A stretch of 33,728 nt of DNA, taken from contig CAIYHO010000106.1 of the NCBI GenBank assembly GCA_903925955.1, forward strand, positions 1 through 33,728, given 5' to 3'. The number at the start of each line of letters is the position of its first letter. The stretch's first letter is position 1. The DNA comes from an uncultured Chloroflexota bacterium (lineage in GTDB: Bacteria > Chloroflexota > Limnocylindria > Limnocylindrales > CSP1-4). Below are positions 2,416-32,170 of this stretch, in pieces. The position numbers and the translations under genes are program-made. The notes under the pieces were generated by a model, which was given only the letters and a program-made list of their open reading frames with translations, ran no database searches and had not been told where the DNA came from.

Positions 2416-2851
2416 ACGGTCCGATGTCGAGCGGTTCATCGACGACTATCGCCGGGCGTTCGAACGCTTTGATGTTGCGAGGGTGGCCGGGTATTTCGCG
2501 TTTCCCCTGCACGTGACCGGCGACGCGGCCGAGGTCACCGTCGTCAGCATCCCTTCGCTTGAGGCGTGGCTGCCGCAAATCGAGCGCATCGTCGGCGCCT
2601 ACCGGCTGCTGGGCGTGGCGTCCGCACGCCCGGGCGACATCCGGATCCGGCTCGTCACAGAGCGAATCGCGCAGGTGACAGTCGACTGGGCCCTAGATGA
2701 CGCCCAGGATGACTGCGTCTACGACTTCAACGCCTCGTACACGCTCGCCGACTTTGGCGCCGGGCTGCGGATCACGGCCATCGCCCACAACGAGCGCCCG
2801 AAGATGATGGCGGCGCTCGCTCGTAAACAGGCCGCTGATCGCACCGCCTAG
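2408..2851 (+). CDS. SnoaL/NTF2-like protein
   Basis: 147 residues starting MVERSDVERFIDDYRRAFERFD, with a strong AGGAGG ribosome binding site 7 nt upstream that sets this start inside the end of the polymerase gene. The predicted pattern of N-terminal helices and then curved strands (FAFPLHVTG; ITAIAHNERPKMMAAL at the end) resembles NTF2-like/SnoaL folds, which form a conical pocket that binds or converts small molecules. No catalytic residues can be assigned. The 8-nt overlap suggests co-transcription with the polymerase; a functional link to end-joining is not shown. It is convergent with the PIN-like gene. Confidence 0.7.
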   Translation: MVERSDVERFIDDYRRAFERFDVARVAGYFAFPLHVTGDAAEVTVVSIPSLEAWLPQIERIVGAYRLLGVASARPGDIRIRLVTERIAQVTVDWALDDAQDDCVYDFNASYTLADFGAGLRITAIAHNERPKMMAALARKQAADRTA

Positions 2852-2868
2852 CGATCCCGCGGGCACAC

Positions 2869-3237
2869 CTACGCCGTCGCCGGGAGCCAGAGCACCGCGT
2901 TCACGAGGTCGCTGGGCCGCTGCGCCAACTCGAGTGCCTCCAGCGCGTCCGCGATCCGCCCCACGCCAGCCCGAGTTGGCGGTGTAGCGCGCGAACTGCA
3001 GAGCACCACGCCGGGGTGCGGCCGGCCGGCCGAAATCTCCACGGCGGCCAGCGCGCGGAAGCCCGCGATGTCGTAGGTCACAACCGTCCGGCTCTCAACC
3101 GTGGCGGCTTCCCAGACCCGGCGATCGATGGCCCCACGGAGGTCCGCCCGCTCAGCACTGGCCACCGCGTCATGGCCGCGAGCCCGCAGGATGTCGGCCA
3201 CGGCAACCGGCACGTGTTCGTCAAGCAGAACCCTCAC
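2869..3237 (-). CDS. PIN-like toxin, DUF5615 family
   Basis: 122 residues. The opening MRVLLDEHVPVAVADILRARGHD is the DUF5615 (Mut7-C/PIN-like) signature, with D6/E7 as first acidic residues and a later acidic site in TVVTYDIAGFRAL. Proteins of this family are predicted metal-dependent ribonucleases and are usually the downstream partner of a DUF433-type or RHH antitoxin. Here the ATG overlaps the stop of the upstream RHH gene by 4 nt (ATGA), the standard coupling of a toxin-antitoxin pair. Length is normal and the frame is intact, so the toxin is probably active. Toxicity itself is inferred. Confidence 0.85.
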   Translation of the reverse strand: MRVLLDEHVPVAVADILRARGHDAVASAERADLRGAIDRRVWEAATVESRTVVTYDIAGFRALAAVEISAGRPHPGVVLCSSRATPPTRAGVGRIADALEALELAQRPSDLVNAVLWLPATA

Positions 3238-3671
3238 GGGAAGAGCCGGCGCCGCTTCTCCTGCAGCGCGAACTCTCGCTCGAAGATCGCCTCGTTCTCG
3301 GCCAGCCAGGCGTCGATCTCCTCCGTGTACGTCAAGTAGTAGTCAAGCGCGATCTGCACCCTCGTCGCAGGCAGGTTCAACAGCGACGCAACCTCATGTA
3401 CGTCCCCGGCATTCGCCTTGAGCACCATCACGATCTCCCAGACGTCCGGCCCGCCCACAACCGCCGCGCGCCGTCCGGCCGGCCCATCCGCGAACCGGAT
3501 GCCAGGGTGCTCCACGAGGCGCAGCCCCTCCTCGAGGTACTGCTCCGCCAATGAGGTCCGCGTTGTGCCCTGCATCGCGGCGCGCACGTCTAGCCGCTTC
3601 ACCATGTCTGGCGGCAGGCGGAAGCTGCTGACCTCTCGAACCGCCTTCTTGGAACCTTGTCGCTCGCTCAT
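3234..3671 (-). CDS. RHH-type antitoxin with DUF433-like C-terminal region
   Basis: 145 residues. Residues ~14-55 (EVSSFRLPPDMVKRLDVRAA, then TSLAEQYLEEGLRL) look like a ribbon-helix-helix DNA-binding unit. The middle part has the DUF433-like helix-turn-helix pattern (PDVWEIVMVLKANAGDVHEV, then ASLLNLPATRVQIALDYY), followed by a charged helical tail (EIDAWLAENEAIFEREFALQ) that could wrap the partner. This combination directly upstream of a DUF5615 protein identifies the antitoxin and likely autorepressor. The ATG lies 6 nt after a TACGAT box and has no Shine-Dalgarno sequence. The 22-nt gap to the upstream XRE gene holds part of its promoter. Confidence 0.82.
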   Translation of the reverse strand: MSERQGSKKAVREVSSFRLPPDMVKRLDVRAAMQGTTRTSLAEQYLEEGLRLVEHPGIRFADGPAGRRAAVVGGPDVWEIVMVLKANAGDVHEVASLLNLPATRVQIALDYYLTYTEEIDAWLAENEAIFEREFALQEKRRRLFP

Positions 3672-3705
3672 GCCGACATCGTAACTCGTCGTATTACGTC
3701 GTCAA
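3672..3705 (-). promoter_or_regulatory. Promoter of the toxin-antitoxin pair with palindromic operator
   Basis: Read on the minus strand: TTGACG (-35, 3705-3700), a 16-nt spacer, TACGAT (-10, 3683-3678), 6 nt, then ATG. The spacer region carries a GTAA-N9-TTAC palindrome (3681-3697), well placed for autorepression by an RHH protein. The -35 box and part of the spacer lie inside the last codons of the upstream XRE gene, so the pair has its own promoter. No Shine-Dalgarno sequence fits between the -10 box and the ATG, which suggests a leaderless transcript. Confidence 0.6.
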
Positions 3706-4458
3706 CACTGTCTGCGCTCGGGGTGCACTCGGCGAGGCCGTGATCCGATACCCATCGGGCGTGCTGTGTGCCCAGAGCATTGCGGCCCCAGGCCAGGGTC
3801 CGGTCCCAGTGAGCGCAGCGAGTGCCGCGTCCGGCGACCCCGGATAGGACGCGGCGATCAGCGCGCCAAACTCCCGGACAACGTCCCGGTTGTGCCGAGT
3901 GGCCCTCACAACCAGGAGGCGCGAAATGGTCGCCGTCTCGCCGTCCCGGTACGGCCACACTGCGGCCGACGGCAGCGACGACGCCTTGTCCCGGCTCCGT
4001 CGGAGCAGTTGCTCTAGCCGACGCAGCTCGGACTCAATTTCGGTGGCGATAGCCAAGTGCTCTGCCGCGTCATGGAACACAAGGTCAATCGAACCGCGGG
4101 CTGGCCGCCACACGCCCACCTCGGGCCACGGACCCCACCGAACGTGTGCCAGCCGCAACAGCGCCACCGCGATGGCCGACTGGTGCCGATCACGTATCGG
4201 GGATCCCGTGTTGGGGTAGAGGCGGCACGCAAGGTCCGCACCCAGCGCGGCCGCAATGCGCGCGTAGATCTCCAGCGTTGGCTCGGCCTTGTGCTCCTCG
4301 ATTCGCGACAGGTAGCCCTGCGAGATCCCGCATGCGGCCGCGACCTGCCGTTGGCTTGCGCCCGCGTCCTCGCGCATGCGGACGATGTCCTCCGCCATCT
4401 GGTACCTAATCGACGCCAGCCGCTTGATCGCGTCGCTCTGGATCTTCGTGAGGCTCAT
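3694..4458 (-). CDS. XRE-family regulator with degenerate nuclease-like C-terminal domain
   Basis: 254 residues. Residues ~16-78 form a Cro/CI helix-turn-helix (VRMREDAGASQRQVAAACGI, SQGYLSRIEEHKAEP). The C-terminal part has the layout seen in restriction-endonuclease-like domains of actinobacterial XRE proteins: GSIDLVFHD (D125), then LAIATEIESELRRLEQLL. The usual E-x-K motif reads E140-I-E142 here, so lysine is missing and catalysis is doubtful. It lies just upstream of the toxin-antitoxin pair, same strand, 22 nt apart. A second protein of the same architecture lies at 31098-31904, and both genes share an operator-like upstream sequence. The domain assignment is by pattern only; it could also be a ligand- or protein-binding fold. 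Confidence 0.78.
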   Translation of the reverse strand: MSLTKIQSDAIKRLASIRYQMAEDIVRMREDAGASQRQVAAACGISQGYLSRIEEHKAEPTLEIYARIAAALGADLACRLYPNTGSPIRDRHQSAIAVALLRLAHVRWGPWPEVGVWRPARGSIDLVFHDAAEHLAIATEIESELRRLEQLLRRSRDKASSLPSAAVWPYRDGETATISRLLVVRATRHNRDVVREFGALIAASYPGSPDAALAALTGTGPWPGAAMLWAHSTPDGYRITASPSAPRAQTVLTT

Positions 4459-4508
4459 GCCGACATTGAAGCGACAGCCGCTTATCTGCGACTTATCTGC
4501 GGCTCATC
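4459..4508 (-). promoter_or_regulatory. Promoter and three-box operator of the XRE gene
   Basis: On the minus strand, TTCAAT (4470-4465) lies 6 nt before the ATG as a -10 candidate. Upstream are GATAAG boxes at 4486-4481 and 4497-4492, separated by 11 bp start to start, plus a weaker third box (GATGAG, 4508-4503) at the same period. One helical turn between boxes suggests cooperative binding on one DNA face. The nearest box ends 22 bp from the ATG. The same arrangement precedes the XRE gene at 31904. Confidence 0.6.
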
Positions 4509-4535
4509 TCGGGCACTCCTCGAGCCCTGGCGTCC

Positions 4536-4783
4536 CGGATATTCCTGCGGGGCATCGATTCCCACCACGAAGTGCCGCAGCGATGCCCGGCAGGCATCAC
4601 CGGAGCAGAAACGGGGGCGAAGCGGGGGCGAAACCGGCGTCGCGATGCCCGGCAGGCATCACCACGACACGATCGGGGCAAAACTGATGCCCCCGGGAAA
4701 TACCCGCGGCAAGGGGCGGCGAGGGGCGACGGGAACCGGCGAAGCAGTGCCCAAATCGATGCCCCCGGGGAATACCCGCGGCA
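4536..4783. repeat. Cluster of short GATGCC/GGCATC hairpin repeats
   Basis: This fills most of the 370-bp gene-free stretch 4459-4828. A 22-bp unit (GCGATGCCCGGCAGGCATCA core) occurs exactly twice, at 4580-4601 and 4642-4663; each contains the stem GATGCC-N5-GGCATC. A 26-bp unit (GATGCCCCCGGG to CCCGCGGCA) occurs at 4686-4711 and 4758-4783 with one difference, and can also pair ATGCC with GGCAT. A degenerate inverted copy lies at 4536-4556. All share the GATGCC end. This looks like a REP-type cluster and may also act as a terminator downstream of the M48 protease gene. Confidence 0.7.
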
Positions 4784-4828
4784 TGCCGTGGCGGGGTGGG
4801 CGCGCTGACGAATCGCACCGCCTAACGC

Positions 4829-6235
4829 CTAGTCCACGTCCTCCTGGATCAACCCGTCGTCGGCCAAGGGTGGCTGACCGCGCAGCTCGCGAAGGCGGTT
4901 GACGCGGTCGATGGTGCGCGGGTGCGTTGAGAAGATCCCGGCTGCGCGCTTCTCGCGAGCCCGGATGGGGTTGACAAACCAGAGCGGCGCCGTGGCGCGG
5001 TTGGCGGCAAGCAGCGCCTGGTCCGTCCGAGCCGCTCGCAGCAGCGCGCCCTCCAGTGCCGCCGGGTTGCGCCCCAGCTCCACGGCCGTGGCGTCGGCGA
5101 GGTACTCGCGCTGTCGCGACACGGCCACCTGGGTGAGGCGCGCGAACACCGGTGCAATGGCGTTGAGCACCGTGGCCACCAGCAGCAGGACAAGGACAAA
5201 GATGATGATGGCCAGGACGATGGCGAATGCATCGCCCGCGTCCGAATCGCCGCCACCGCCGCCGCTGCTGCCGCCGCCACCGCCTCCGCCACCACCGCCG
5301 CTTGACCCGCCGCCGGATGACGAGCCGCCGCCTCCCCAGTGGCCGAAGCCCCAGGAGCCGCCGCTGCCGCCACCACCGGCCGCATCCGCGATGAGCCTCG
5401 GGATCCGAAACGGCAACGTCACCACGCGGAAGAACCCGTCGGCCACCAGTACCACCGCGCCCACGCCGATGGCGGCGATCAGGCTGTAGCGGCTGTCGTA
5501 GTTGCGGATGTGGGCGAGCTCATGGGCCACCACGCCCTGGAGCTCCTCGCGCGACATGACGTTGAGCAGCCCGCGCGTCACCACCAGCACGGCGTGCTCC
5601 GGGTCACGCCCGGCGGCAAACGCGTTGGGCGCGTTCTCCTCCACCACATACAGCCCGGGTGCCGGGATCCCTGCCGCAATGGCCAGCTCGGTCACGGTGT
5701 CGCGCAATGGCCCTGCGTCATCGGCCGCCAAGGGCCGGGCAGACGAGATGCGCAGCAGCGCCCGCTCGCCGCGCGTGTAGGCCAGCCACGCCGAGGCCGC
5801 GCCAATCGCCACGGCCCCGCCGGCAAACGCCAGCCCAACGGACGTTCGCAGCGACACGACCGCCGCAATCACATAGGCGGTCAGCGCAAGCAGGACCACG
5901 ATGGCAGCCGACAGCAGGAGTGCGTCCCGCCGATTGACGGCCGCCTGCGACCAGAACGTATCGCCTGCGGGCGCGATGCGGTGCAGCACCAGCGGCGTCA
6001 CCACCAGCAGGATCAGCGCAACCAAGAGCACCACCGCCGGCTCCCACGGGGTAATCCCCAGCGGCCCCGGCTTGAAGGTGAACGGCAGGACGCCGTACTC
6101 GCCCACGTAGTACACAACCAGCGCCGTGATCAGCGGCACCAACACCAGCACTGCGATGAACGCCAGACCGATGCGGCCGTAGTCAGCGTCGGCAATCCCT
6201 GAGGCGATCTGCGAACGATCCCCCCGCTTGCTCAT
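4829..6235 (-). CDS. M48 family membrane metalloprotease (HtpX-like) with poly-Gly loop
   Basis: 468 residues. Four hydrophobic segments (~22-43, 67-86, 107-128, 133-152) precede the protease domain. The zinc site is HELAH at 238-242 (VVAHELAHIRNYD); the third ligand is probably the Glu in SRQREYLADATAVEL (~377). A further membrane segment (~336-362) follows a very Gly/Ser-rich insertion (~287-330) containing a run of ten glycines. The C-terminus carries the FSTHPRTIDRVNRL motif typical of HtpX relatives. The family degrades misfolded or damaged membrane proteins. Its ATG overlaps the stop of the upstream ligase gene (ATGA), so the two are co-transcribed. Confidence 0.9.
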   Translation of the reverse strand: MSKRGDRSQIASGIADADYGRIGLAFIAVLVLVPLITALVVYYVGEYGVLPFTFKPGPLGITPWEPAVVLLVALILLVVTPLVLHRIAPAGDTFWSQAAVNRRDALLLSAAIVVLLALTAYVIAAVVSLRTSVGLAFAGGAVAIGAASAWLAYTRGERALLRISSARPLAADDAGPLRDTVTELAIAAGIPAPGLYVVEENAPNAFAAGRDPEHAVLVVTRGLLNVMSREELQGVVAHELAHIRNYDSRYSLIAAIGVGAVVLVADGFFRVVTLPFRIPRLIADAAGGGGSGGSWGFGHWGGGGSSSGGGSSGGGGGGGGGGSSGGGGGDSDAGDAFAIVLAIIIFVLVLLLVATVLNAIAPVFARLTQVAVSRQREYLADATAVELGRNPAALEGALLRAARTDQALLAANRATAPLWFVNPIRAREKRAAGIFSTHPRTIDRVNRLRELRGQPPLADDGLIQEDVD

Positions 6236-7317
6236 TCCCCGAAGATCCTCGAGAGCAGGAACGGCGCCGTGGTCTCCAGCTGGTCATAGCGGCAGTCGCG
6301 CGGCGTGCGGTCGGGCCGCCAGCGCCGGAACGTTGACGCATGGCGGAACCGGTCGCCCTGCATGTGGTCGTACGCCACCTCAACCACGCGCTTGCAGCGC
6401 AAGGGCTCCCACGAGAGGTCCTTGCCTCGGTTCCAGCGCGAACTCGCACCCGGCAGCCGCTGGCCGGAACCCTCTGCGCCAAACGACGCCTGGTCAGCCC
6501 ACTCGCGCCACGGGTGATTGTTGAGCGCGTCGTCGCGCAGCGGCGCCAACTCGGCGAGCAGCGCCTCGCGCCGTTCCCATGTGAACGACGCCGTGATCCC
6601 CACGTGGTGGAGCTTGCCCCCGGCGTCATACAGCCCCAACAGCAGCGACCCGACGTGTGTTCCCAGGCCGTTCTTGTGCCAGCGGAACCCGGCCACCACG
6701 CAATCGGCGGTGCGCTCGTGCTTGACCTTCACCATGGCGCGCTTGCCCGGCTGATACGTCCCGTCAAGGCGCTTGGCCACAACGCCGTCGAGACCCGCGC
6801 CCTCAAACCTGTCAAACCAGTCGGCGGCCACCGCCCGATCCAGCGTGGCGGGTGTCAGGTAGATGGGCGCCGTTGCCCCGCCCAGCACCGCCTCCAGTCG
6901 CGCACGCCGCTCTGACTGCGGCTGCTCCCGCAGATCCTCGTCGCCCAGCGCCAGCAGGTCCCACGCCACAAACGAGGCCGGCGACTCAGCCGCCAGCGTC
7001 CGCACACGCGAGTCCGCCGGGTGGATGCGCAGGAGGAGCGCGTCAAAGTCCAGGGCGCCGCCGCGGGCAATCACAATCTCGCCGTCCAGCACACAGCGCT
7101 CTGGCAACTGCTTGAGAAACGGCAAGGCCAGCTCCGGGAAGTACCGGTCCAGAGGCTTCAGTTCGCGCGACTGGATAAACACCTCGTCGCCGTCCTTGAA
7201 GACCATGGCTCGGAAGCCATCCCATTTGGGCTCAAAGAGCCAGCCGTCACCAGGCGGCAGACCGGAGGAGGGCTTGGCGAGCATCGGCTCGACGGGGTGG
7301 CTGAAGGGGAGCGCCAT
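6232..7317 (-). CDS. ligC: ATP-dependent DNA ligase, LigC type
   Basis: 361 residues, the usual length of mycobacterial LigC. The adenylation motif is EPKWDGFRA with K31 as nucleophile; further motifs are CVLDGEIVI (motif III region), AGLDGVVAKRLDG (motif IV) and MVKVKHERTADCVV (motif V). The C-terminal OB domain includes VGSLLLGLYD and ends with the LigC-type tail FRRWRPDRTPRDCRYDQLE. It seals nicks using ATP and serves in end joining or base-excision repair. The stand-alone polymerase at 898 would supply gap filling. No Ku gene is present here. Upstream, TATCGT lies 6 nt before the ATG and no Shine-Dalgarno sequence is evident. It is followed without a gap by the M48 protease gene. Confidence 0.93.
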   Translation of the reverse strand: MALPFSHPVEPMLAKPSSGLPPGDGWLFEPKWDGFRAMVFKDGDEVFIQSRELKPLDRYFPELALPFLKQLPERCVLDGEIVIARGGALDFDALLLRIHPADSRVRTLAAESPASFVAWDLLALGDEDLREQPQSERRARLEAVLGGATAPIYLTPATLDRAVAADWFDRFEGAGLDGVVAKRLDGTYQPGKRAMVKVKHERTADCVVAGFRWHKNGLGTHVGSLLLGLYDAGGKLHHVGITASFTWERREALLAELAPLRDDALNNHPWREWADQASFGAEGSGQRLPGASSRWNRGKDLSWEPLRCKRVVEVAYDHMQGDRFRHASTFRRWRPDRTPRDCRYDQLETTAPFLLSRIFGE

Positions 7318-30946: not shown

Positions 30947-30955
30947 AACCACCCC

Positions 30956-31068
30956 GAATTCACGCCTGACTCAGGCCGCGGGGTGACGCGCAGGGTTCGT
31001 GCCCCCAAGTCGCGGTTCGCCCTTCGAGCTCTGCACCCGGGACGCAATCCTGAGTCACTGGTGAATTC
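30956..31068 (+). repeat. Palindromic repeat family, copy 3 (GAATTC subfamily, 113 bp)
   Basis: The ends are GAATTCACGCCTGACTCAGG and CCTGAGTCACTGGTGAATTC, complementary at 17 of 20 positions. The inner stem is GCGCAGGGTTCG against CGAGCTCTGCAC. By hand alignment it agrees with copy 4 at about 94 of 113 positions with no gaps and in the same orientation. It lies between the convergent membrane-protein and XRE genes. Confidence 0.85.
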
Positions 31069-31097
31069 CGGAGGGGCCACTACCCTGTCCCCGCTCG

Positions 31098-31904
31098 CTA
31101 TGCCCGAAGCAGGCGCGTCGCAGCATCCGCGTAGTCCGCGTAGGCCGGCGGGCGTCGGCGCCCCCCGAGCGTTGTTGCGCCGAGCCAGTCGGCCCGTCGG
31201 CGGGCTGGGTCCGCGGTGCCGAGCACCCAGCCCTGGGGCGGCGGCCGGCTCGGATCTGCCAGCCAGGCCGCGGCAGCGTCAACTGGTCCGGGGAACGCGT
31301 GCCCGATGAGGTCGCGCTGGTCTGCAAGGCGTCGGGCGACGGTTTGCGTGTCAAGGGCGACCACCAACACGGCGACCCGCTGCGGACGCCACCCAAGCTC
31401 TCGAGCAGCCTGCCACGCCTCGCGCACATAGAAGGCGAGCGTTCGCTGCAGGGCCCCAACATCGTCAATCACGGTCTTGGTCTCCTCAACGAGGAGGGTG
31501 CGGTCAGCCTCGCGGAAGCCCAGCAGGTCAATCCAACCCTTCGGCGAATTGAGCCCCAACTGCACCTCCGACGCGGTGTGCCACGCATCGCGCTGCAACC
31601 GCCCAGCCACGTAGCCGTTGAGCCGCGCATGCAACGCCCCGCGCTGGTGGCGCCGATCCTCCAGGTGCCGGCCGTCCAGATCAAGCGTGGCCCGAATGCC
31701 CAGCGCCGCAAGCACGGACGCTAGCGCTCGCAGGTCAAGGTCAGCCCGGGCGGTCTCAATCCTGCAGACCATCGACTGCGACGTGTGGGCCCGGATGGCG
31801 AGTTCCTGCTGCGTCCAGCCGATGAGCTGCCGCGCCTCCTTGACGAGGTCCGCAACCTGCCCCGGCATGCCGAGTTGGCCGAGTTGGATCCTGGTGCCTG
31901 CCAT
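31098..31904 (-). CDS. XRE-family regulator with PD-(D/E)XK-like nuclease domain
   Basis: 268 residues. The helix-turn-helix (~17-75) reads LVKEARQLIGWTQQELAIRA, HTSQSMVCRIETARADLDLR. The C-terminal domain has the restriction-endonuclease-like layout: ASEVQLGLNSPKGWIDLLGF (D126), then RTLLVEETKTVIDDVGALQR (E141-x-K143), and a helix with Q153. This is the pattern of uncharacterised actinobacterial XRE proteins that carry the ELKTE-type motif. Unlike its relative at 3694-4458, the E-x-K is intact. It lies on the strand opposite to the amylase, inside the glucan locus and between two copies of the palindromic repeat. The nuclease assignment is by motif only; the protein might use the fold only for binding. 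Confidence 0.8.
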   Translation of the reverse strand: MAGTRIQLGQLGMPGQVADLVKEARQLIGWTQQELAIRAHTSQSMVCRIETARADLDLRALASVLAALGIRATLDLDGRHLEDRRHQRGALHARLNGYVAGRLQRDAWHTASEVQLGLNSPKGWIDLLGFREADRTLLVEETKTVIDDVGALQRTLAFYVREAWQAARELGWRPQRVAVLVVALDTQTVARRLADQRDLIGHAFPGPVDAAAAWLADPSRPPPQGWVLGTADPARRRADWLGATTLGGRRRPPAYADYADAATRLLRA

Positions 31905-31974: not shown

Positions 31975-32170
31975 GAATTCGCCCCTGACTCAGCCCGCGA
32001 ATTCACCCATGACTCAGACCACGGCCTGACACGCAGGGCTCGATCCCGCAAGTCGCGGTTCGCCCCGCGAGCTCCGCACCCGGGGCCTGATCCTGAGTCA
32101 CCGGTGAATTCAGGGCATGCCAAACGTCAGCTCCGCACCCGGGGCCTGATCCTGAGTCACCGGTGAATTC
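31975..32170 (+). repeat. Palindromic repeat family, copy 4, with duplicated left and right arms
   Basis: The 113-bp core is 31999-32111 and ends in GAATTC on both sides. A second left arm (GAATTCGCCCCTGACTCAG) precedes it at 31975. A second right arm follows: 42 bp at 32129-32170 are identical to 32070-32111, a 59-bp shift. The unit occupies most of the 303-bp gene-free stretch 31905-32207, between the permease gene and the XRE promoter. Confidence 0.85.

Follow-up and report, generated by a model that had tools for sequence, protein, structure and literature searches.

The locus and its repeats

The DNA analysed here, referred to as the window, is a stretch of 33,728 nucleotides on one contig (C106) of an uncultured Chloroflexota bacterium, whose genome (code G000 in the genome comparisons) comprises 3.64 Mb in 308 contigs and is 92.5% complete. 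An earlier note on this DNA had described two different repeated units and one inverted copy in a gene-free stretch at 4536–4783, and all of these were located in the window. The 22-bp unit GCGATGCCCGGCAGGCATCACC is found at 4580–4601 and 4642–4663, both copies without mismatch and within 62 bp, and the 26-bp unit GATGCCCCCGGGRAATACCCGCGGCA at 4686–4711 and 4758–4783, with one difference between the copies; the inverted copy of the latter (84% complementary) lies at 4536–4560. The whole array extends slightly further (4531–4783), is intergenic in a stretch without a credible gene, and contains five dyads, the unit being a 6-N5-6 dyad (GATGCC-N5-GGCATC). Its core is 181 bp long (4531–4711), and one additional terminal dyad extends the window copy to 4783, giving start-to-start steps of 42, 62, 42 and 72 bp. 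The features are as follows.

2838–2850, + strand: left 13-bp direct repeat ATCGCACCGCCTA, flanking the insertion described below
2869–3237, − strand: gene for a DUF5615 protein (PF18480), likely toxin partner
3234–3671, − strand: gene for a ribbon-helix-helix protein (RHH_1), likely antitoxin
3694–4458, − strand: gene for an XRE-type HTH protein (HTH_31, HTH_3), start ~73 bp from the array
4531–4783, no strand: whole phased-dyad array, with the same architecture in eight further intact copies in the genome
4540–4556, + strand: 5′ terminal dyad TATTCC-tgcgg-GGCATC, followed by GATT and preceded by CGTCCCGGA (compare the consensus TGTCGCnGG)
4582–4598, no strand: internal dyad 1, GATGCC-cggca-GGCATC, +42 from the 5′ terminal dyad
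4644–4660, no strand: internal dyad 2, GATGCC-cggca-GGCATC, +62 from internal dyad 1
4686–4702, − strand: 3′ terminal dyad GATGCC-cccgg-GAAATA, +42 from internal dyad 2
4758–4774, − strand: extra 3′ terminal dyad GATGCC-cccgg-GGAATA, +72 from the preceding terminal dyad
4812–4824, + strand: right 13-bp direct repeat ATCGCACCGCCTA, flanking the same insertion

Counted over the whole window, the motif was mildly unusual, with eight matches (≤2 mismatches) against 3.84 expected and an equally high count in 6 of 100 shuffles. Chance cannot account for two mismatch-free copies within 62 bp, for the fixed register, or for the return of this array at other sites in the genome. A BLAST search against plasmids gave no matches.

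The insertion that carries the array sits between a LigD-type polymerase ORF (781–2415) and an ATP-dependent DNA ligase gene (6232–7317), an end-joining gene cluster. The window holds a second XRE-type gene (31098–31904, − strand) with a 120-bp direct repeat (83%) on both sides (30952–31071 and 31995–32114); the two XRE proteins are only distantly similar (29% identity over 133 amino acids).

A dispersed family with a fixed order and spacing

Pattern and BLAST searches of the genome with the GATGCC/GGCATC units gave matches on ten contigs, including that of the window, and revealed approximately 11 arrays (C75, C83, C90 twice, C106, C152, C158, C198, C265, C279 and C297). Nine are intact, one is decayed (C83) and one is split by an IS21-type element (C90:3034–5757). 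The units thus belong to a dispersed family, and the local duplication that the earlier note would have favoured had they been absent elsewhere does not account for them. The IS21-type element (IstA/IstB; locus L109, 3030–5760) interrupts an internal dyad.

Every intact copy has the same order, a 5′ terminal dyad, two internal dyads and a 3′ terminal dyad. The spacing is 42-62-42 bp in C75, C106 and C198, likewise in C152 except for a last step of 41, 42-72-42 bp in C158, C265, C297 and C90, and 52-62-42 bp in C279, so that the nine copies show only single departures (41 and 52) from two patterns. The length between the outer boxes is 180/181 or 191 bp. Most internal dyads are symmetric, and TGTCG/CGACA boxes border the internal dyads on the outside. 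The terminal dyads combine the inner arm GGCATCGATT with an outer arm of their own, TATTCC (GGAATA at the opposite end); the exception is C90, with GATGCC at one end in place of the special outer arm. A second terminal dyad like that of the window is present in the C198 copy, at +51. The array ends are defined and inverted (TGTCGCnGGTATTCC ... GGAATAnCnGCGACA); conservation ends at the outer boxes, and the sequence beyond is random. The family has, in short, a fixed grammar.

The genes next to the arrays are variously tandem, convergent and divergent, and a role as promoter or terminator is unlikely given these mixed orientations. Genes of toxin–antitoxin type adjoin 4 of the ~10 arrays (RHH and DUF5615 at C106, PIN at C158, RHH and PIN_3 at C198, PIN at C90).

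The exact array pattern of this genome was absent from 84,980 GTDB genomes and from IMG/VR. An exact pattern of the 42-bp type, searched in 400 Chloroflexota genomes, occurred five times in the window's genome and twice elsewhere, which is the control level (3). A looser multi-dyad pattern matched 37 IMG/VR contigs, all of which held unrelated repeats in AT-rich phage coding sequence whose codon period is 21 bp (A-N-S/G-A-F/Y type). Coding repeats were also rejected as the source of the interval pattern, because the arrays lie between genes and a step of 62 bp is not divisible by 3.

Arms are conserved and spacers turn over

Pairwise identity between the genome copies was 0.80–0.98 in the arms, which is partly ascertained since the copies were located via their arms, an effect that leaves spacing and spacer turnover untouched. 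It was 0.42–0.49 in the N5 centres, 0.35–0.44 in the spacers, for which composition predicts 0.27–0.29, and 0.30–0.32 in the flanks, about the composition expectation (0.27–0.31 over spacers and flanks). Over its whole length no pair of copies exceeds 67% identity, and the identity matrix is star-like. Near-random spacers would be expected to carry many small insertions and deletions, yet length changes among the copies are almost exclusively of ~10 bp, that is, whole helical turns.

The sole orthologous pair of arrays found, C265 and its counterpart in the related genome G008, shows the same contrast, with 46 of 48 arm positions identical but only 20/30 in the TGTCG boxes, 12/20 in N5 and 24/60 in the spacers. 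Its central step is 72 bp in C265 and 62 bp in G008, one turn apart. This one pair indicates that the array may be under selection in place.

Each internal unit could pair over up to 15 bp, with the middle pairs often unpaired. There was no covariation between the arms of 18 internal dyads (78.9% of cells paired against a shuffled mean of 79.3%; score 0.175 against 0.177). The lack of covariation, the free N5 centres and the 10-bp steps favour recognition as duplex DNA, that is, an array acting as double-stranded DNA rather than as RNA.

Relatives share the spacing with half-sites of their own

In relatives, a profile built from the half array (78 positions) located arrays in G008 (three loci), G004, G003, G076 and G016, and weaker ones in G059, G081, G005 and G009; the near sister G007 (79% complete) had no match, nor had G001, G002, G006, G010 and G011. 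Matches in G081 (C5), G082, G073, G009 (C102) and apparently G013 were coding or unsupported and were discarded. The half-sites are specific to the species while the grammar is common: TGTGCC at 42-63-42 in G076, GATGCG with CGCATC outside at 42-63-42 in G003, and CATTCC/GGAATG at 62-62 in G004, the steps in relatives remaining 42, 62–63 and 72–73. Among 66 intervals from the window's genome and relatives, 34 were 41–42 bp, three 51–52, 19 62–64 and eight 71–73, with single intervals of 81 and 88, although intervals of homologous arrays are not independent and perhaps five or six independent length changes back the phasing. In the relatives 19 of 22 intervals fell within the phase set, whereas shuffling all loci 20 times yielded just three intervals altogether. 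In G059 (locus L168, 2245–2775) a small XRE-like gene has dyad clusters with N6–N7 centres on both sides, possibly a gene-carrying form of the array.

Arrays differ in presence between sister species

Positions 2851–4824 of the window (~2 kb, with the DUF5615, RHH and XRE genes and the array) are absent from G008, where an NTF2-like ORF abuts an M48 gene and the empty site has one copy of the 13-bp repeat (CGCACCGCCTA). The C297 site is empty, with joined flanks, in G007, G008, G002 and G009; G007 likewise has joined flanks without an array at the C158 site and at the C265 site, where G008 has the orthologous array. An 8-bp direct repeat TGTCCCGG lies at both sides of C297, with a single copy in the G007 empty site. 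Direct repeats around the arrays measure 8 bp at C297, 8 bp near C90, 13 bp around the window insertion and ~85 bp at C152, with none seen elsewhere. At C152 (locus L121, ~6420–6870) the repeated ~85 bp correspond to the upstream gene's 3′ terminus, and short 20-bp tandem repeats also border the array. Presence and absence of arrays thus vary between sister species, and the best reading of these comparisons is that arrays appear to have been gained and lost between species; the empty sites indicate that they may be mobile or repeatedly gained. The site orthologous to C75 carries a different small inverted-repeat element, with arms like GGCCCAACTGCGCGGT..., in G007 (locus L206, 1294–1524) and G008 (end of locus L208), which suggests that small repeats favour this intergenic site.

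Alternative explanations

The earlier note had taken the cluster for a REP-type element and proposed a search for its transposase. By definition a REP is a 20–40-bp stem-loop that carries an unpaired GTAG or CGTC tag on one side (PMC3733652), and as a REP/BIME-type repeat the array would owe its spread to a Y1 (RAYT) transposase that works on single-stranded hairpins. The array units are indeed intergenic, palindromic and dispersed, but the Y1_Tnp domain (PF01797) had no match in the 92.5%-complete genome while 5 of 14 control genomes were positive, and the aligned copies have no unpaired GTAG or CGTC tag beside the units. REPs of the CGTC type have no dedicated transposase (PMC3733652). With approximately 11 copies, a fixed composite unit of 181/191 bp instead of a short hairpin, and arms whose pairing is not maintained by compensatory changes, the REP assignment is hardly tenable. 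An RNA element, in which the units would fold as transcript hairpins (attenuator, processing site or small RNA), could draw on the pairing of up to 15 bp in each internal unit. However, shuffles show compensatory changes at least as often, the middle pairs of the units are frequently open, an Rfam scan of the window matched a tRNA alone and nothing in the array, the orientation to genes varies, and steps of 10 bp make no RNA sense, so that we consider such an element very improbable. Equally improbable is that the array serves only as the operator of the adjacent XRE regulator. The earlier note had placed structured repeats upstream of both XRE genes, and the array does lie ~73 bp from the start of the first, as the small XRE-like gene of G059 lies between two dyad clusters; but the other neighbour-scanned arrays of the genome have no XRE neighbour and the second XRE protein is just 29% identical to the first, leaving a weak link.

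A MITE-like non-autonomous transposon of ~181–191 bp deserves more weight, though we regard it as unlikely. The dyads would be transposase sites, the terminal dyads the ends and the transposase supplied in trans, and phasing would be required for the two ends of such a short element to meet. The defined inverted ends with random sequence outside agree with this, the terminal dyads being inverted copies with arms 0.83–0.98 identical between copies, and so does the insertion polymorphism, with empty orthologous sites for C297 (in four genomes), C158 and C265 and the window segment absent from G008. The 8-bp repeat at C297, single in the empty site, and the 13-bp repeat around the window insertion point the same way. 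Against it, no consistent target duplication is apparent, most copies showing none, and the absence of any copy pair above 67% identity is unlike a transposition burst. All end motifs with 0–1 mismatch lie within arrays, whereas a few with two mismatches lie elsewhere; at 0–1 mismatch no autonomous transposon sharing the ends was seen in this 92.5%-complete genome of 308 contigs, and in the orthologous resident copy arms are conserved while spacers decay.

Proposed explanation

On balance, we lean towards the cluster being a member of a family of phased-dyad arrays which function as double-stranded DNA, and the putative binding site of a multimeric protein. Such a protein, binding DNA sequence-specifically, would most likely occupy each 6-N5-6 dyad together with the TGTCG/CGACA boxes that lie roughly one more turn outwards. 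Neighbouring dyads 4, 6 or 7 helical turns apart would place the bound units on the same face of the DNA, where a same-side assembly is possible because of these distances; such units may form a single complex, closed and symmetric, with the special outer arms of the terminal dyads as its caps. We infer from the sequence comparisons that such a protein probably exists and that the array may be selected in place. Presence and absence between close relatives counts against this explanation, being unexpected for a core host function. The in-place and mobile readings both predict a putative multimeric DNA-binding protein, which would be a host protein in the one and transposase-like in the other, and we give the host, in-place array some preference: in the resident copy the arms have outlasted the spacers, and neither a copy series like that of a transposon nor an autonomous partner came to light.

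More broadly, we see even chances that these arrays form a new family of symmetric, capped dyad arrays, phased at 4-6-4 turns, that spans several genera within one Chloroflexota family. The half-sites would then change in concert within each genome and be read by a co-evolving multimeric putative protein, and the arrays would be either local DNA organisers or whole minimal mobile elements. Small intergenic repeats are usually taken as hairpins or decayed transposons; these arrays instead keep helical-turn spacing and short half-sites. Half-sites that differ between genomes as a set point to a putative DNA-binding protein that can be searched for directly, and the arrays offer a clean test of whether such repeats are maintained for the host's benefit or solely for their own mobility.

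Comparison with known systems

Multi-site arrays such as the ends of Tn7 and Mu, resolvase res sites and the plasmid centromere sopC (43-bp repeats) have fixed, often helically phased sites and assemble symmetrically. The present arrays appear to resemble them in having several dyads at fixed spacing, but no cognate recombinase, ParB-like protein or transposase is linked to them. To our knowledge, palindromic dyads with capped ends at 42-62-42 have not been described for Tn7/Mu, res or centromere systems. The open-licence papers searched on Chloroflexi MITEs, phased palindromic intergenic repeats, BOX and multi-site MITEs contained no description of such arrays, and an earlier account elsewhere is possible.

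With REP/BIME repeats and their RAYT the arrays share short, palindromic, dispersed, intergenic units, but they lack the tag tetranucleotide, occur in a genome without a detected Y1 transposase and have a composite 181/191-bp form. The BOX elements of pneumococcus are modular (boxA-boxB-boxC), typically <200 bp, intergenic, present in ~125 copies and predicted to have a common RNA fold (PMC3049150). The arrays too are modular, with end and internal modules, and intergenic; unlike BOX, they number approximately 11, are spaced in helical turns and give no sign of a common RNA fold (no covariation, no Rfam match). YPAL/RU-2 and the MITE-like small repeats ERIC, RUP and Correia/NEMIS are, like the arrays, <200 bp, non-coding, mostly intergenic, bear inverted repeats and vary in presence between strains, and the target duplications of YPAL are variable in length (PMC2229807). 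The arrays differ from YPAL/RU-2-type repeats in that their copies are at most 67% identical, with no clearly regular target duplication, and in that their interior is a row of phased dyads with conserved arms and free spacers.
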